Part shown: piece by piece, positions 1-59,556 of the stretch
How positions within the stretch are numbered: the first letter of the stretch is position 1
Layout of the letters: each line of letters opens with the position of its first letter
Assembly: GCF_900110465.1 (NCBI RefSeq)
Contig: NZ_FODV01000002.1
Span: 1 to 64,000, forward strand
DNA from: Halogranum amylolyticum
GTDB taxonomy: Archaea; Halobacteriota; Halobacteria; Halobacteriales; Haloferacaceae
Reading direction: 5' to 3'
Length of the DNA stretch: 64,000 nucleotides
Translations under genes and position numbers: made by a program
Notes under the pieces: model-generated
Seen by the model: only the letters and a program-made list of their open reading frames with translations
What the model was told of the DNA's origin: nothing
Databases searched by the model: none

Positions 1-1001
1 CGCTCTTCTGTAGGAGATTGTTGATACAGTTCAGCTGTTGCTCTAGAATCGAAGAGGGCAAGGGCACCGCGTTAGCGGTGTCCGACACGAATGATTCCGC
101 TCGATGTGTTTGGTTCGGAATCGCTCGCAGCGGACCTGCTCCAACAGGTTCGCTGGCGTGACGGCGTCGAATGCCCCCGCTGCCGTTCTGACCGGACGGT
201 CAGAAACGGCAGCTATGGGGCGTTTCAACGCTATCTCTGTAAGAATTGCGACCGCACGTTCAACGACAAGACGGGCACAATTTTCGCTCACTCGAAGGTT
301 GCGCTCCGCAAGTGGTTGTTCTCAATCTACGCGTTTCTGCGCTTCAACACGAGTCTTCGCCAACTTCAGCGAGAGATCGGTGTCACCTACAAGACGATGC
401 ATCAGCGCGTCGAGCGCTTTACCAGAGCGCTCGACGCGCCTCAACTCGACCTCGTTGGACCGGTCGAAATCGACGAAGTGTACGTCTCTGCGGGGTTGAA
501 AGGCCGCGAGCGCGACCAAGAGTCGCGCTCGCGTGGCCTGTCCACGCGCGGACGAGGTTCGTACGAGGGAGACAAACCACCGGTCTTCTCCATCGTTGAC
601 CGTGGAACGGGACAGCGATACGTCGCCCCAGCGAAATCCGCTGACGAATCGACAGTGCGACTCCTGCTGGCGGACCACGAGGAGGAGTCGCTGACCGTCT
701 ACACTGACGGATTTCGGGCATACGACCCACTGGAGGACGACGACGAATTCACCCGCGAATACGTCGTCCACGGTGACGGCGAATACGCTGATGGAGACGT
801 TCACGTCAACACCTGCGAGAGCCACGCGTCGCTGGCGCGACGGTGGCTCTCGCCGCATCGAGGCGTCTCGAAGGACAAGTTGACACAGTATCTCCGCGCC
901 TTTCAGCTACGCAGCGAACTCTTCAGAAAACCCGGTCGAAAAGCACTCAAACACGCTGTCAAAGCGACTCTCTGAAATCAACAATCTGCTACACATGAGC
1001 G
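1..1001 (+). mobile_element. ISH4-like IS1595-family insertion sequence
   Basis: A single transposase gene lies between inverted ends. The left end at 9-25 (TGTAGGAGATTGTTGAT) matches the reverse complement of 977-993 (TGTAGCAGATTGTTGAT) at 16 of 17 positions. Similarity continues outward: CGCTC at 1-5 matches the complement of 997-1001. The true left tip may therefore lie just before the window, and no target duplication can be judged. Size and arrangement fit ISH4-type elements of about 1 kb. It abuts the lower-G+C mobile region that follows. Confidence 0.85.
91..975 (+). CDS. IS1595-family (ISH4-like) transposase
   Basis: This 294-residue transposase should catalyse cut-and-paste movement of the surrounding element. 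An N-terminal zinc ribbon is visible (CPRC near residue 29, CKNC near residue 50), as in IS1595 enzymes. The DDE-type catalytic core follows: VEIDEVYV near residue 126, VYTDGFRAY near residue 204, and HVNTCESH near residue 240, which supplies the Asn/Glu-type third acidic motif. The reading frame is uninterrupted and ends one base before the right inverted repeat, so the element looks potentially active. The ATG at 91 gives the normal family length and starts just upstream of the zinc ribbon. Confidence 0.92.
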   Translation: MIPLDVFGSESLAADLLQQVRWRDGVECPRCRSDRTVRNGSYGAFQRYLCKNCDRTFNDKTGTIFAHSKVALRKWLFSIYAFLRFNTSLRQLQREIGVTYKTMHQRVERFTRALDAPQLDLVGPVEIDEVYVSAGLKGRERDQESRSRGLSTRGRGSYEGDKPPVFSIVDRGTGQRYVAPAKSADESTVRLLLADHEEESLTVYTDGFRAYDPLEDDDEFTREYVVHGDGEYADGDVHVNTCESHASLARRWLSPHRGVSKDKLTQYLRAFQLRSELFRKPGRKALKHAVKATL

Positions 1002-2070
1002 ACTGGAAAAGACAAGTGGAAACCATCACCCTTGAAATTTTAGGTGGAAAGAACCACACCCCCAGATAGTCACGCGGTAGAAGCTCTGAAACCCGAGAAA
1101 AAGAGTAGGGTATCAAATAGTACATATAATTTGATGTCCTAAGCAACACTCATAGTAGGGGTGCAAATTTGCCACCCCCGTCTGAACTATTACTAAAATC
1201 TGATAAATGACGAGAAAAGTAACCTAATCTTGACCGCGCCGTCATACTACCCATGGGACCCCCCGAGTAGAGCAGATTGGTGGCTCCCGAGTTTTGTTTA
1301 TAGAATCTGATAAGACCCGTCTGAAGAGTCACGGTCCCGGCTCCCCTAACCTGAAGATTGAATCCTGAATCTGGTTAGAGAATCCTGAACCCGACCCCTG
1401 AACGAGAATAGTGACACCCCATTCTGAATGTGACAAGGAACACCCCAGAATGATCGACGATAAAGACACACCCCGGAACAGTAGCGACGAGAATAGAATC
1501 ACGAACAAAGCACAACAGAACACACCCCGGTCTAAGCGCAAAATACCAGACCGATGAATCAGAAGGCGTCGCGGAATGAAATCACGGTCAATGCTCACCA
1601 CACACCGGAAAACATGGACGCGACAGAATGCCGGGGAACTGCTGAACGCGAAAACTGTGGGAGCCAAATCACGTCTAAGACAGAAGGGGGTCCAAGTCTC
1701 ACAAGAACAGAACAGACAGCGCGTCGCGAATGAAGATCGAAGAGAAGCACACCGTCCCGCGAATGAAAACCGAGGTTAGGGGGGAGACAGCGCGTCGCAA
1801 ATGAAACACACCCAAATCTACAACAGAAACCACAGTCAAACTCCCGATTTCAACAAACTGATATACCTCATCGCGAATGAAAACCTGGGATGAGACACAC
1901 AGCACGTCGCAAATGTATTCACTGACAGATTCCTCCCGGGGTGACATCAGTAACACGAGTGGGGTGGACGCGCCATAACACGAACACAACTGAACCATCA
2001 ATCAGATTACCCGGCAGTGACGGTCTGAACAACGACAATACTGCAAAACCCGAATTTTAACAGGCTAGAT
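1002..2070. other. Gene-poor tract of the element, T-depleted on the + strand
   Basis: I see no convincing gene here. Open frames on the minus strand (for example 1329-1667 and 1699-2001) have no recognisable content and look like by-products of skewed composition. From about 1400 to 2080 the + strand is visibly rich in A and C and poor in T. The tract contains the repeated motif annotated at 1566-1918. Several repeats place an ATG at the same point, creating very short frames such as a 24-codon one beginning in the copy at 1721. It could be a replication or regulatory region, or DNA specifying a non-coding RNA. Confidence 0.5.
1566..1918 (+). repeat. Six dispersed copies of a CGTCGCRAATGAAA-like motif
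   Basis: Related copies lie near 1566 (GCGTCGCGGAATGAA), 1721 (GCGTCGCGAATGAAG), 1753 (CGTCCCGCGAATGAAAACC), 1792 (GCGTCGCAAATGAAAC), 1869 (CATCGCGAATGAAAACC) and 1903 (CACGTCGCAAATGTA). Two sub-types alternate: one preceded by GAGACA or AGACAG, the other followed by AAACC. All are in the same orientation. Spacing is irregular (roughly 30-155 bases), so this is not a CRISPR array. It could be iterons bound by an initiator or regulator. Confidence 0.6.
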
Positions 2071-2241
2071 ATGCAAACACAAACCACGATGCTAACGAAC
2101 CAGTTAATCCGCGAAAAAGCGCAAGAGAGCATTGACTCAGGCGTGTACGACCCTGAGGGTGTCGCGGAAAAGTTGGAACGACACGCGCGACAAATCCGTG
2201 ACCTGCACGGTGTCCCGCGTCCAGATGATTCTAACGATTAG
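2071..2241 (+). CDS. Small acidic/basic helical protein, function unknown (56 aa)
   Basis: An ATG at 2071 opens a 56-residue frame ending with TAG at 2239-2241. The product starts MQTQTTMLTNQLIREKAQ and has a plausible helical make-up, with a central VYDPEGVAEKLERHARQIRDLHG segment and an acidic tail (DDSND). Codon use looks like a real haloarchaeal gene, unlike the flanking DNA. The longer overlapping frame (2132-2461) is out of phase with it and runs into the G tract. I recognise no family. Size and position, between a repeat array and a DNA-binding protein gene, suggest an element-encoded accessory or regulatory peptide. Confidence 0.55.
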   Translation: MQTQTTMLTNQLIREKAQESIDSGVYDPEGVAEKLERHARQIRDLHGVPRPDDSND

Positions 2242-2640
2242 TTCGGGAGCTCGATCTGATTTTCTCGCGTCTCGGGTGAGTCACGACCAGCAAGGCCACG
2301 TGCCGCGAAGTAAGTACGATGTGTCGTCGGAGTCGTTTGGGGGGGGGGGGTTCTCATACCGCGATTATTTTTTTCTCACGGGGTTTTCGAGGGGTGGGGT
2401 TGAGACGCGGGATTTTGTCGGGGTTGTCGTGAACCCCGCGCAGACGGTGAGCGTGCCGTGAGCGGGGGGTACGGCGTCGCTCGCTCACCTTGTTCACTCA
2501 CTTTGCCGTAAAGGTGGCGTCTTACTCGTCCTTTGACAGTATAGGTATATAAGTGTTGTTGTTAGTTTGTTTATGTGTTTCCTTGTTTTGTGTTGTCGTA
2601 CTTACCTGTCAACGTGTTTTTGTTAGTGTTTTGGTGTTGC
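2242..2640. other. Non-coding G/T-rich spacer with a G12 tract
   Basis: No gene seen. In contrast to 1400-2080, the + strand here is rich in G and T. It contains an uninterrupted run of 12 G at 2339-2350, a T7 run soon after, and a T/G-only-like stretch from about 2545 to 2640. A TATA-like ATAGGTATATAAG lies near 2540. The switch in skew happens near 2250, at the end of the 56-residue gene. Confidence 0.5.
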
Positions 2641-2720
2641 GGGGTGGTTTCGGACCAGAACCACCCCACTTGATTTTGAAACAACCCCAGTTTGGGGTGG
2701 TTGTGTGTAAGGTATTTAAG
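2641..2720 (+). promoter_or_regulatory. Operator cluster and TATA box for the 549-aa RHH protein
   Basis: Three copies of GGGGTGGTT occur: 2641-2649 (+), 2659-2668 inverted (AACCACCCCA) and 2693-2702 (+, TGGGGTGGTT). The last two form a perfect 10-bp inverted repeat. They are followed by a TATA-like GTATTTAAG at 2712-2720. That TATA lies about 30 bases before the ATG at 2746, so the transcript should be essentially leaderless. Operators directly upstream of a gene whose product begins with a ribbon-helix-helix-like segment suggest autoregulation; this is inference. Confidence 0.6.
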
Positions 2721-2745
2721 TATGGGTCTACGACCACAGAATACA

Positions 2746-4395
2746 ATGGGTAAAAAATTGAACTATCGCGTTGACGAGAACGTCGCCGAAATGTTTCGGG
2801 AGGCTGTCGAGAAGAAGCACGGGCAGGTAGCGTATAAGGCCGGAGATGAGTTGTCCCGATTGATGCGTGAGTGGTCCGAGACCGTGCTAAACGGCGAAAG
2901 CGCGGATTCGGATGAGCCGTCGAATGAAGACCTTCTGGAAGCTATCAATGAGCTTAGAGAGGAGTTCGAGGACGGGATCGTTGCACCCCCCTCCCCCTCA
3001 AAACCCCCGCGAGAAAAAAATAATCGGGGGGATGCCGAAACCACCCCAAGTTCAGACGATTCTGAGTCAGATTCCGAGTCAGATTCGGAATCTGATGTGG
3101 AGTCGGATGGGGGTCAGGACATGGACGCGTCCACGCCCACACGTGAGAAGCCGTGGCTAATCACGGATTACAATCCATATGATTTCAACGGTGAGATATC
3201 ATCGGAGAAGTTCGACGAGCTTCACGAAACCGTGAAGAGCGGGGGTGACGTGCCTAACGACTTAGTGATCAATCCGGAGCATGTCGAAAAAACGAATGTG
3301 CCGAACACGACGGTTGGCACGCAGACGGAGATTGTGTTGGGGATGTTGCGGTACGATTCTGGTGGGCCGTATTCGAAATCCGAGTTGTCGCGAGTCATTA
3401 AGACAGTCTGGCCGACGGATTACTATTCGAATCCGAGTGACGGGAGTCTGATTAATCGTGTGTGGGGTCAGATGCCGGATCATCCGTTCAAGTCTGGGTC
3501 TGCGGTTGACATGCATACGATTCAGAGTGACGCGAATGAGAAAGCGGCGCGTGAGGTTGCGTTGGCGAAGAAAGAATTGTCGAAGGTTGACAGTGTTGAA
3601 TCGGTTCGCGAGCGGGACGAACTAATCGAAAGGGTGGAAGAGCAGGAGGATGTGGTTGATGAGTTGACGGACACGTACCAGCTTGATGGGATTCATCAAG
3701 AGGGTATGCGCGATGTGATGGATGACTTGGAGGAGGCCCAGGAGACGATGACGGAGAGTATCCGTGAGTCGCGTGAGCAAGACGTGCAGGATGTTGCTGA
3801 CAAGGTTCGAGGCTACGTTGACGACTTGGATGAGACAGTTGATGAGTCGGATGTTGTCGACATTGTTGAGTCGGCACGCAAGTCGGCGTCAACGTATCTT
3901 GACGTTGATACGGACATGCAGGCAGCGGATGATTTGTCGGTGCGCATGATTGCGGCTGAGTCGTCGTCATCGTCGGATGACGTGACTGACCTTGGTGTGT
4001 CGACTGCGCCGGTTCGAGATGCGCTTGATGAGGTTGAGTCTGCGGCGGAGGATCGTACTGAGTGGTTGGAGGAGAATGACCCGACGCGGAGTTTAGATGA
4101 CATCCCTGAGGATGCGTATCGGCAGACATCCAACCGTGACTTCAGCAAGGTGGACGCCGGGACGCGTGACGGTGATCAAATCGTCTTCGGATCTAGTCTG
4201 CATCCACGTGAGAAGGCGCGTGTGGTTGTTGATGTGTTAGGGTATGACTTCGCGAATGATGTTATCGGGACCATCCATGTCTACGCAGTTGGGGGGGATG
4301 ATGTTGCTGATGCACTTGAGGAGACTGTGCTTGACGAGTTCAGTGAGGATACGGATGCGGATGCTGAGACGATGCTGGAGAATGCGGACTTATGA
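2746..4395 (+). CDS. RHH/coiled-coil DNA-binding-type protein of the integrated element (549 aa)
   Basis: I do not recognise a named family. Residues 1-45 (KLNYRVDENVAEMFREAVEKK and the following helix) look like a ribbon-helix-helix fold. Residues about 75-125 are a Pro- then Ser/Asp/Glu-rich linker with repeated SDSES units. Residues about 180-255 contain a winged-helix-like stretch (EIVLGMLRYDSGGPYSKSEL). Residues about 265-370 are strongly coiled-coil and a mixed acidic domain ends the protein. I chose the ATG at 2746 because the TATA at 2712-2720 would initiate within a few bases of it; an upstream frame extension to 2692 would overlap the promoter. Codon use is more A+T-rich than the host genes, consistent with mobile DNA. 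DNA-binding plus coiled coil fits a replication, partition or master-repressor role (inference). Confidence 0.65.
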   Translation: MGKKLNYRVDENVAEMFREAVEKKHGQVAYKAGDELSRLMREWSETVLNGESADSDEPSNEDLLEAINELREEFEDGIVAPPSPSKPPREKNNRGDAETTPSSDDSESDSESDSESDVESDGGQDMDASTPTREKPWLITDYNPYDFNGEISSEKFDELHETVKSGGDVPNDLVINPEHVEKTNVPNTTVGTQTEIVLGMLRYDSGGPYSKSELSRVIKTVWPTDYYSNPSDGSLINRVWGQMPDHPFKSGSAVDMHTIQSDANEKAAREVALAKKELSKVDSVESVRERDELIERVEEQEDVVDELTDTYQLDGIHQEGMRDVMDDLEEAQETMTESIRESREQDVQDVADKVRGYVDDLDETVDESDVVDIVESARKSASTYLDVDTDMQAADDLSVRMIAAESSSSSDDVTDLGVSTAPVRDALDEVESAAEDRTEWLEENDPTRSLDDIPEDAYRQTSNRDFSKVDAGTRDGDQIVFGSSLHPREKARVVVDVLGYDFANDVIGTIHVYAVGGDDVADALEETVLDEFSEDTDADAETMLENADL

Positions 4396-4634: not shown

Positions 4635-4787
4635 ATGAGTTCGGCGACGAGAGGTAGTGAGGATGGCAATGACGTGGGCATTGCCTCTGACGGAAGTAAC
4701 GGTGAACAAGAAGAGTTGGAGCGACTTGCAGAGCGAGAGGACGCTACGGGGTGGATCGCTCGGGCAATGCTGTCTGGGAAGACTTAA
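4635..4787 (+). CDS. Small acidic protein, function unknown (50 aa)
   Basis: This 50-codon frame begins MSSATRGSEDGNDVG and ends IARAMLSGKT. It has a well-placed TATA box (4597-4604) and ends in TAA at 4785-4787. It runs tail-to-tail into the integrase gene, whose stop lies at 4784-4786, so the two overlap by 3 bases. The protein is acidic with a short amphipathic C-terminal helix and no recognisable domain. Good promoter placement and clean spacing against the integrase are the arguments for a real gene. Confidence 0.5.
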   Translation: MSSATRGSEDGNDVGIASDGSNGEQEELERLAEREDATGWIARAMLSGKT

Positions 4788-6205
4788 TCCACGAGTGTTT
4801 CAATGGATTCCTCAACGGCTTCTCGTGGTGCTTCAAATCCGCTGAAGTGGTGTTCGAGTTCGTTCTCGGACAAGTGCGCGGACAAGACGCTGTCCTCCCC
4901 CTCAAACAAGTTGTTTAGCGTCTCTCGGGCTTCCGCTGCTTCTTCATCAGTCCCCTCGATTTGTTTTTTCACAAGACCAACTGCCACCCGTGCACTGACC
5001 TGTTTGAACGTTTGAAAGCCTAGTTCTCCAATATTCCGAGGTTCGTGTTGACGGAGATAATGAGTCAGATCGTCATCTTCTTCGGCGACATCGAAGAACG
5101 CTTGAAGCCACTGGGGACGGGCATCGTCGGAGACCCGGAGATGACACCGTGGGCATTGCGATGTCCCGGCAGCCATGATGGTGTCGCAACGCGGGCATTT
5201 GATGGCTTCTTCTTCGACGTCGATATCGACGTCTGCGTCGATGTCAGCGGCTCTAAGCAGTGATTTGATTTGGTCGGATTGGTTGATGTGTTCGTAGCGC
5301 TCGTGCTGATTAGTCCCTTCTGTCCAGTCCAGGTTGTGTTCAATGTCGCCAGGTCCGTATTCGTCTTTCTTGCGCATCCATGTTGCTCTTGCGTGCCGGA
5401 ATGCGTGGTTATTCACCCTCTCAGGGTCAATCCCGGCTTCTCTCGCGATTCGCTTGATTTTCACCCTGAACGATTCCGGGGTCATATGCTCACCGTAGTG
5501 TTTCTCGCTGTCTTGTCGGCAAAACAGCGCGGCGTCATCGTCATCAGCACACGGGTGTTCGGAGAGCCACTTGTCGACATACCCGCGAGCGACGGTCAAG
5601 GGCTTCTTGCGTCCATCTGCACCTTTGAGTCCGGTTGCGCCAGTAGGTGTGGTTAAAATTGCGTGAGTGTCCTCTATTGGTTCGTAATCCCCGACTCTAA
5701 GTGATGCGAGTGCAGTAACTCGGGGAGCGGCTTCCCAGTATGTGGCGATAATCGCTTTTTGACGTGGTTTTGATGCTGTCTCAATCAGCGTTGAAACTTC
5801 ACTGAATGACAGTACGACGTCTTCATCGATTTTGCTCTGGTTAACGCTTGGAACCGTGAGATTGTCTGCGACGTCTAAGTTGTGATGCCTCGAAAAGTAA
5901 ACAAATGCTTCAATGTACTTTCTTCGTGTGCCATCTGCGTAGCCGTTCTCGGAGTCGTAGTCACGGCCCATCTCTCGGAGAACGTTCTTGAATTCTCTCC
6001 GGTCAAGTTTCCTGAGTGGTTTCTCAGCGTTAGCAGATAGTCGTCGGAGTCGACCTATGTAGTCGCGTGTTGTTGCGGGGGTCGCGTCCAGCGCGTCAAT
6101 GTAGTCGACAATGTCTCCCTTGTTGGGGTCGTCAAGAGAGTCCATCACGAGATTGAGTTCGCGTTGAACGTCTGATTCGTAGTTGGCTACGTCAAGGTCG
6201 ACCAT
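4784..6205 (-). CDS. Tyrosine recombinase/integrase with C-terminal zinc ribbon
   Basis: This 473-residue site-specific recombinase should insert and excise the element. Residues about 10-105 form a SAM-like core-binding domain. The catalytic domain shows the conserved Arg at about 162 (PRVTALASLRV), HAFRH at 267-271 (H-x-x-R) and the nucleophile Tyr at about 304 (HERYEH). After the catalytic domain come CPRC (337-340) and CPRC (351-354), a zinc ribbon, then a helical tail; this C-terminal addition is not part of the minimal recombinase. The ATG at 6205 gives a normal N-terminus. The frame stays open upstream through ATG 6235 and into the disrupted PLD gene, giving a potential 971-residue fusion. 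No TATA lies between the junction and the start, so expression in the integrated state may depend on the host gene. Confidence 0.9.
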   Translation of the reverse strand: MVDLDVANYESDVQRELNLVMDSLDDPNKGDIVDYIDALDATPATTRDYIGRLRRLSANAEKPLRKLDRREFKNVLREMGRDYDSENGYADGTRRKYIEAFVYFSRHHNLDVADNLTVPSVNQSKIDEDVVLSFSEVSTLIETASKPRQKAIIATYWEAAPRVTALASLRVGDYEPIEDTHAILTTPTGATGLKGADGRKKPLTVARGYVDKWLSEHPCADDDDAALFCRQDSEKHYGEHMTPESFRVKIKRIAREAGIDPERVNNHAFRHARATWMRKKDEYGPGDIEHNLDWTEGTNQHERYEHINQSDQIKSLLRAADIDADVDIDVEEEAIKCPRCDTIMAAGTSQCPRCHLRVSDDARPQWLQAFFDVAEEDDDLTHYLRQHEPRNIGELGFQTFKQVSARVAVGLVKKQIEGTDEEAAEARETLNNLFEGEDSVLSAHLSENELEHHFSGFEAPREAVEESIETLVD

Positions 6206-6244
6206 TTTGTGTCCAACAATTGGTGTTTGGAACATCAACCTTGG

Positions 6245-7699
6245 GTACGGATTCCAGTTGACGCTGCCGACGACGACGCGGTCGTCGGCGACGACGGCCT
6301 TCGCGTGGATCTTCTCGAACCGGCCGTCGGGGGCGGCGACGCGAGCCTCCAGCGGCAGGTTCCGACGTTCGGCCCGCTCGTTCAGCCAGTCGACGAGTCG
6401 GCGGTTCTCCTCCGCGACGTACCACGTCCCCGAGAGAAGGATCCGGACGTCGACGCCGCGCTCGGCGGCCCGGAGCGTCGCACGGAGGAACGGGTGGTGG
6501 CGGCCGCCGACCGTCGGCTGGACGACCGAGACACGTTCGGTCGCGCTGTCGACGACGCCGACGATTGCTCGCTCGGCGTTGCCGGGTGCGGTCACGAGCC
6601 GCACGCGGTCGACGGCGACCGAGCGAGAGTCGAACTGCGCCCGATACGTTCCGTTCGCAGACCGACTCGCGGTGAACGATCGGCCGCGGCGGAACTGCGA
6701 CCACGGCGTCGTATCCGGCCCGGTGGCGTCGGTCCGAAAGACGGCGGCGAGTTCGTCGGCCGTCGCCGTCGACGCGACGCGGACGCCCCACCCGCGGTTG
6801 CTTCGGCCGCCCGTCCCGCTCGGCTTCCAGTTCTCGGTGAGCACGAGCGCCCGGTCGTCGACGACGGCGTACTTCGGGTGGTGGTAGTCGTACCGTGCAC
6901 GCTCGCCACCGACGACGGCGACGTCGACGCCCGCCGCTTCGAGTCGGTCGAGTGCGGCCGCCTGTCGGATCGTCGTCCCGCCGACGGGCGCGTCGTCGAC
7001 GAGCACTCGGACGCGAACGCCGCGTTCGGCGGCCGCGACGAGCAGGTTCGCGACGTGGGGCGAGGCGAACGTGTAGCCGGCGAGGAGGATGCGTCGGTCC
7101 GCGCTCCGGAGCGTCCGTCGCGGGACGTCGGGGGCGTCGGGAAGCACGAACGTCTCGGCCGTCGTCGACCCCGCGACGGCGACCGACCGGGGGGAGAACC
7201 CGAGCGGTCGCCACCGCGGCGTTCGATCCCGGCGCCATCGCTCTCCTTCGGGTGCGTTCTCGTAGGCGACGCGGTCGACGACGACACCGTCTCGCTTGAG
7301 TCGGAGTCGCTCACCGCCGTTGGCGAGTTCGAACGCCGCCGGCGCGCGGACGACGCGCCCGGTCGTCCCGTTCGGGAGCGCCGTAGGCGTCACGGTGACG
7401 ACGAGACGGGTCGGACTGCCGTTCGAACCGGTCGCGTCGGTCGGCAGCGCCACCGTCGCCTCGCCGTCCGTGAGCGTCCAGTTTCCGGACCGCTCGGCCG
7501 AGAGGCCGACGACGACGAACTCACCGCGGTCGCCGTCGGCGAACGGGTTCGGGTACAGCGAGACGACGTACGCGTCTCGGTCGTCGTGCGGCGGGGACGA
7601 ATCGGGTGGGGGCGAGGCGGCGGAGGCGACGCCACCCGAGGGTGGACTCATCGCTACACAGAGAATGACGAGTACACAGAGCGTAGCGGGACGAGACAC
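6245..7699 (-). pseudogene. Phospholipase-D-like secreted protein, 3' end removed by element integration
   Basis: The N-terminus is a signal peptide (residues 1-29). A beta-rich lamin-tail-like domain follows (about 43-160), then two PLD phosphodiesterase halves with the motifs HHPKYAVVDD (about 273-282) and IHAKAVVADD (about 464-473). Haloarchaeal homologues continue past the second motif (VGSVNWNP, ending near residue 484) for a further segment that I expect to include a membrane anchor. Here composition changes at residue 485 and the frame runs into the integrase. Both catalytic motifs remain, so the truncated or fused product might still fold, but normal anchoring is lost. Its start at 7699 is supported by the signal peptide. 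Confidence 0.85.
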
Positions 7700-59521: not shown

Positions 59522-59556
59522 TGAGCGAGCACACGACGTCGGGGTGGTTCGCGTGA
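59521..59556 (+). CDS. 11-residue leader peptide MSEHTTSGWFA
   Basis: The predicted transcript starts exactly at this ATG, which opens an 11-codon frame (MSEHTTSGWFA) closed by TGA at 59554-59556. The GTG start of the winged-helix gene at 59553 overlaps that stop (GTGA). This is the arrangement of a translationally coupled leader peptide. The peptide contains a Trp near its end. No leader-attenuation system is known to me in this gene context. Confidence 0.45.
   Translation: MSEHTTSGWFA

Follow-up and report, generated by a model that had tools for sequence, protein, structure and literature searches.

A putative replication initiator and candidate origin in a pleolipovirus-like provirus of Halogranum amylolyticum

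ORF 2746-4395 (plus strand) of a 64,000-nucleotide stretch of Halogranum amylolyticum DNA, referred to here as the window, encodes a 549-aa protein (P0001) that we propose to be the autoregulated, origin-binding replication initiator of a pleolipovirus-like provirus, a reading to which we assign a probability of about 0.5. This proposal draws on the repeats at the promoter of the gene, on AT-rich DNA enclosed by an inverted array, on the DNA-binding-like layout of the protein, on the lack of another candidate among the proteins of the element and on the varied types of element in which the gene occurs. Established directly were the provirus, the protein family, the inverted-repeat structures, the link between these structures and the family gene, and the failure to detect known replication proteins. 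Support is good for the family and its repeat structures and moderate for the role in replication, and a role of P0001 in the maintenance of the element appears plausible.

Identification of the provirus

A host gene of the PLD family is interrupted by the element, a provirus of the pleolipovirus type that measures about 22 kb. The window holds one of its ends; the opposite end is found on a second contig of this genome, C33, of which 1-15.6 kb constitutes the remainder of the provirus. The nature of the element had been hidden from the initial annotation because the structural genes are on this other contig, and its description can now be extended to a pleolipovirus-like provirus on the basis of the VP3-like, spike, ORF6/7-like and VP8-like ATPase genes of C33. 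The spike is 38% identical to VP4 of HRPV-1 (E=7e-79), the VP3-like and ORF6/7-like proteins were recognized by PHROGs matches, and the VP8-like ATPase has relatives in HHPV3 and His2. Both the VP4-like spike and the collinear arrangement of VP3-like membrane protein, ORF6/7-like protein and VP8-like ATPase by which Pleolipoviridae are recognized are thus present. None of the replication genes that define the genera of this family (HUH RCRE, DUF7845 Rep or PolB) was found in the provirus.

The right end of the provirus is marked in the window by the 10-bp attachment core TTCCAGTTGA (6252-6261), which reads TCAACTGGAA in the sense of the PLD gene and is carried by both junctions at the PLD active-site motif. 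On the inner side of this core, the minus-strand gene at 4784-6205 encodes a tyrosine integrase (PF00589, E=5.6e-13) with a zinc-ribbon-like C-terminal region, which is convergent to the P0001 gene and whose start codon is presumably at 6205. On the outer side lies the N-terminal part of the split PLD-family gene (6262-7699, minus strand), the other part of which is located at C33:15630-15923. Integrase and N-terminal PLD part are fused in frame into an ORF of 971 aa (window 4784-7699). In relatives of the same genus the PLD gene is intact and followed by a 633-aa gene, and both the missing PLD end and the 633-aa gene are found on C33. G361, G363 and G262 (L057-L059) have elements with a related integrase at this PLD site, and other members of this integrase family adjoin an rlmE/rrmJ-like gene (L060, L064, L065).

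An insertion sequence within the provirus, encoding an IS1595-family transposase (91-975, plus strand), interrupts the contig assembly. This IS1595-family copy (window 1-1000; L071:1-98) forms an end of contig C25 as well as of C33, and the first 95 bp of C33 are the reverse complement of the first 95 bp of the window. Judging from this 95-bp overlap, the window contig and C33 probably adjoin at the IS1595 copy. Since it carries an IS, the provirus may be replication-dead. At L071:1500-2123 and 2264-3319, a second, Xer-like tyrosine recombinase adjoins a SIR2-like, defence-like gene; this recombinase is 70% identical in the G118 provirus and 52% in that of G142.

The 549-aa protein and its gene

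The P0001 gene starts with the ATG at 2746 and is, as had been claimed for it, the largest gene of the provirus, the spike having 517 aa. A TATA-like element, TATTTAAG (2713-2720, plus strand), is predicted 26 bp ahead of the ATG, a distance from which the mRNA is probably leaderless. Upstream of the gene there is a small ORF of 56 aa that belongs to no family (2071-2238, plus strand). Between the IS and this ORF, about 1 kb of A-rich non-coding DNA with an AT skew of 0.36 contains 5 or 6 copies of CGCGTCGC(G/A)AATGAA at a spacing of 33-76 bp (window 1566-1920).

By residue, P0001 can be read as an RHH-like N-terminus (1-48), an acidic Ser/Asp linker (80-125), a YNP..INPEHV..RY motif (142-203) and a wHTH-like region (189-241) that is followed by a coiled/acidic tail. 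Both domain labels, RHH and winged helix, were assigned by eye. The DNA-binding-like architecture suggested in the initial annotation is supported as a hypothesis; P0001 itself matched no RHH profile, and weak RHH matches were confined to relatives. RHH_1 matched the relative from G192 at 15.6 bits (E=0.016, below the cut-off), and the RHH stretch of NikR matched the family profile at E=0.2. AlphaFold models made without relatives reached a pLDDT of 45 for the whole protein and 41 for residues 1-274, values too low to be informative on either fold. No helicase, nuclease or polymerase signature was detected in P0001.

Searches of Pfam, PHROGs and PDB returned no family match for P0001; an AAA_30 match (E=0.11) and SepF/phosphodiesterase matches in PDB (E=0.007-0.3) were dismissed as noise. 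When relatives were sought in plasmids and phages with tblastn, in viral contigs and genome contigs by pattern, and in 392 Halobacteriales genomes, coiled-coil chance matches were all that emerged. The lack of a known family, previously noted by eye, was therefore borne out in Pfam, PHROGs, PDB, plasmids, phages and the 392 genomes of the order. A weak N-terminal match in Haloprofundus (H8) was rejected, as it is a helix-turn-helix gene amid signalling and sugar genes.

A divergent protein family

Related proviruses were located from their ATPase and their gene order was then read. The family as tallied here comprises P0001, its counterparts in six related proviruses (G118, G059, G192, G142, G046 and G332) and those in three other integrated elements (G006, G062 and G232). 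Several of the proviral proteins share a layout of an RHH-like start, an acidic linker, the motif YDP...(I/L)NPEHV...VLxAxxRY and winged-helix-like helices, with an acidic or coiled tail forming the C-terminal end. Profile A2, built from three members with P0001 left out, extended the family to five further genomes, the gene lying in a pleolipovirus-like provirus in G046 and G332 and in one of the other elements in G006, G062 and G232; it did not recover P0001. The two-sequence profile A4 gave no confirmed relative in genome and viral contigs. Like P0001, the family relatives scanned had no Pfam or PHROGs match.

The sequence link between P0001 and this family is weak, though P0001 ranks first. 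Compared pairwise with the G059 protein, it gave E=4.5e-5. With a nine-member profile that excluded it, P0001 was the top non-member in hmmsearch (E=0.0022 among 3902 ORFs; next 0.032) and scored 41.6 in hhalign (E=7.3e-5), compared to 24.0 for the best of 249 real decoys. The YDP..NPEHV..RY core followed by wHTH-like helices is present in P0001, with residues 140-222 aligning as TDYNPYDF...VINPEHVEKTNVP...IVLGMLRYDS. Taken together, these comparisons make it likely that P0001 belongs to the divergent family. Read by eye, the family gene of G118 has the Xer-like recombinase ahead of it and CxxC and nuclease-like genes behind it, and the P0001 gene is placed alike in circular order. This is a fast-changing and seemingly undescribed family in integrated vesicle-like viruses of salt-loving archaea.

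Repeats at the promoter

The three GGGGTGGTT sites that had been described ahead of the TATA-like element, two of them as a perfect inverted repeat, were all found in place. Box 1 (2641-2649, plus strand) and box 2 (2659-2667, minus strand) form the perfect inverted repeat with 9-bp arms, and box 3 (2694-2702, plus strand) is immediately upstream of TATTTAAG. A fourth box that had not been noted before lies within the P0001 gene (3039-3047, minus strand), and its surroundings extend the match with box 1 to 13 bp (2641-2653 and 3035-3047). Region 2241-3100 contains 4 copies of GGGGTGGTT, compared to an average of 0.024 and never more than 1 in 2000 dinucleotide shuffles of the local sequence; an inverted repeat with 9-bp arms arose in the promoter in 30 of the 2000. 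The boxes are placed over the P0001 promoter, as the autoregulation envisaged in the initial annotation would need.

The palindrome at 2641-2667 could also belong to the upstream region, as its transcription terminator or as an RNA hairpin, with the other boxes being chance occurrences in G/T-rich DNA. In a terminator scan its 10-pair stem, followed by a tail containing T, came out best, although such sites were as frequent in shuffles. Four copies of GGGGTGGTT within 410 bp far exceed the 0.024 expected by chance, however, and box 3 adjoins the TATA-like element while comparable repeats occupy the same place in relatives, which makes such a terminator highly improbable.

Long-range inverted repeats

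The window also contains a 41-nt long-range inverted pair, a feature absent from the initial annotation. Its left arm (2359-2399, plus strand) consists of GATTATTTTTTTCTC and a G-rich part, while its right arm (2989-3029, minus strand) falls in the codons for the acidic linker of P0001. The arms match at 35 of 41 positions, and the best of 100 shuffles reached 30. Between them is an AT-rich peak (2540-2579; 75% over 40 bp) that is a candidate unwinding element. A run of 12 Gs at 2340-2351 is located just ahead of the left arm.

Corresponding structures were observed at most other family genes. In G046, three copies of a 47-48-nt repeat that are 104 bp apart, followed by three inverted copies 104 bp apart, precede the gene. 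G059 likewise has a 3+3 inverted set at a spacing of about 104 bp. A 2+3 set was present in G142, repeat pairs 114 bp apart in G192, shorter 2+2 sets in G232 and G006, and a perfect 24-mer pair in G332. In G118, whose provirus is the closest one judged by the ATPase, the repeats are long and direct, and no long-range inverted pair was found. Repeat sequences differ in each genome; by eye, the G046 unit resembles the 41-mer of the window in its TATTTTTT-CT core and in having one end rich in G. The promoter-proximal copy ends about 30-44 bp ahead of the start codon. Conservation of the operator repeats in relatives, which the initial annotation had named as a test of its reading, gave a mixed result, applying to their placement and not to their sequence: GGGGTGGTT itself is not conserved, but most relatives have promoter-proximal repeats with element-specific sequences.

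When loci were scanned for an inverted 24-mer matching at 20/24 or better within -700/+300 of a gene, a long-range pair was detected at 9 of 10 family genes vs 3 of 179 other genes of the same loci that served as controls. One of these three, L106:637, is in fact the family gene of G192, which an overlapping locus had brought into the control set. AT-rich peaks of 70-82% over 40 bp were located between the arms in all 7 cases measured. The P0001 gene follows the family in having a long-range inverted pair around AT-rich DNA, with one arm inside the gene, while the pairs found in relatives are upstream. Because of this intragenic arm and the absence of 104-bp repeat arrays in the window, the geometry of a putative origin is less certain here than in G046 and G059. 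As in iteron-type systems, the repeats of the window lie over the gene's own promoter as well as beside an AT-rich region. Since nearly every family gene checked adjoins a large inverted repeat around an AT-rich stretch, the family protein is probably what initiates copying of these viruses, in which none of the known initiators was found.

The repeats over the promoter could alternatively serve a lysogeny or copy-control regulator, an RHH/wHTH repressor that represses itself via GGGGTGGTT and also acts on other genes of the provirus but does not initiate replication, which is close to the view of the initial annotation. RHH proteins are typically repressors, and this possibility would account for the GGGGTGGTT boxes over the promoter with their perfect inverted repeat as well as for the RHH-like N-terminus and the RHH_1 match in one relative (E=0.016). 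We nevertheless consider it unlikely, as inverted structures of 0.5-0.7 kb around AT-rich DNA exceed the needs of a promoter, a scan covering the 64-kb window alone gave a single GGGGTGGTT copy outside 2241-3100, at 59541, and the proviruses have no other candidate replication protein among the families listed. Because the boxes belong to a larger inverted structure around AT-rich DNA, the P0001 gene looks less like that of a simple repressor and more like that of a replication initiator accompanied by its origin.

Known replication proteins in the proviruses

Replication relies on the Rep-Arvir initiator (DUF7845) in betapleolipoviruses, on HUH Reps in alphapleolipoviruses and on a protein-primed polymerase in gammapleolipoviruses (PMC13107129, PMC10599561), the betapleolipovirus Rep having been identified only in 2026 (PMC13107129). 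In HFPV-1 and in most genomes of the proposed Epsilonpleolipovirus group, no gene for a known replication protein is present (PMC10599561). Among the seven genomes with family-bearing proviruses, DUF7845/Rep-Arvir was absent in G000, G118, G046 and G332, while in G059, G142 and G192 it is encoded outside the provirus, elsewhere in the genome. P0001 gave no match to the PF25227 domain with its catalytic Tyr. A Halfgib1-type HUH Rep was not matched in any provirus; HUH Rep fragments are present in G059 about 23 kb from the provirus region. Pfam and NCBIfam scans of the 133 proteins of the seven proviruses revealed integrases, methylases, restriction enzymes and surface domains and no Orc1/Cdc6, MCM, PolB or Rep among the 25 commonest families listed, a scope within which a weak single match might be hidden. 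RepA of SNJ1 was set aside as a relative of P0001, since it is described as an HUH protein (PMC12642351).

DNA-binding proteins beside repeats are also known in partition and regulatory systems, which weighs against the initiator reading. ParR/parC partition systems combine an RHH protein with repeat arrays at its own promoter. P0001 might similarly be a ParR-like RHH centromere-binder of the promoter repeat arrays that segregates an excised plasmid form of the element; the RHH-like N-terminus, the coiled tail and the two repeat arrays in several relatives, one of which adjoins the promoter, are consistent with such a function. No ParA, ParM or TubZ-like partner adjoins the gene in the relatives inspected, however, nor is there an ATPase partner here, and the repeat layout differs, with widely spaced inverted arrays in place of short same-direction iterons. 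In addition, the element would still require a replication protein and none was found among the families listed, so that we regard a partition function as improbable.

Comparison with known systems and proposed mechanism

Rep-Arvir/DUF7845 (PF25227; SNJ2 ORF19) resembles the candidate initiator P0001 in being large, in its wHTH-like region, in coming from the same virus family and in being a replication initiator beside a cis-acting repeat (PMC13107129). In contrast, neither P0001 nor the provirus has a DUF7845 match, and the Rep-Arvir repeat is a hairpin downstream of the gene, whereas the P0001 family has long-range inverted pairs at and upstream of it. The HUH rolling-circle Reps of alphapleolipoviruses (HRPV-1/2, Halfgib1) share the virus family and the VP3 and spike neighbourhood, but have no homologue in any provirus. 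Haloarchaeal orc1/cdc6 origins likewise have an AT-rich stretch between inverted repeats by the gene of a DNA-binding initiator, and G-rich strings like those in the window repeat (PMC3936714). They differ in that the provirus has no Orc1/Cdc6 among the families listed and P0001 is an unrelated protein. The family repeats, whose sequences vary between elements, are presumably also unlike origin recognition boxes.

Bacterial iteron plasmid initiators of the winged-helix RepA/RepE type are autoregulated and have repeats over their promoter and around an AT-rich segment. P0001 with its putative autoregulation resembles this layout but has no detected sequence relation to these initiators, carries an RHH-like N-terminus and belongs to a family whose inverted arrays are about 104 bp apart in relatives. 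According to the proposed mechanism, P0001 would bind DNA via its RHH-like N-terminus and winged-helix-like middle and would recognize the repeats over its own promoter, thereby limiting its own synthesis. It would also recognize the repeats of the long-range inverted pair around the AT-rich stretch, and binding would open this stretch and recruit the host replication machinery for theta-type replication after excision.

If correct, the initiator reading provides a further set of pleolipovirus-like proviruses with a concrete initiator and origin that lend themselves to experiment, and it addresses the open question of how Rep-less pleolipoviruses replicate. The family could furthermore be a source of new haloarchaeal shuttle vectors and would represent a case of initiator and repeat sequences diverging together. 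Tentatively, and at a little under even odds, we suggest an undescribed class of archaeal replicon, with an RHH and winged-helix initiator, element-specific repeats and an AT-rich stretch for unwinding that these repeats enclose in an inverted structure of 0.5-0.7 kb, that is common to Rep-less pleolipoviruses and other haloarchaeal integrative elements.

Family gene and repeats are also present in non-viral elements. The initiator-like gene of G006 (L138) is in an element with BrxA and DUF6079 genes and that of G232 (L142) in one with an Eco57I-type restriction gene, while G062 (L141) and G006 have a common gene set. In the G070 provirus (L121:16409-19501 with L103:9-1607), a protein of ~1500 aa without a Pfam family takes the place of a detected family member and is possibly another replication module.
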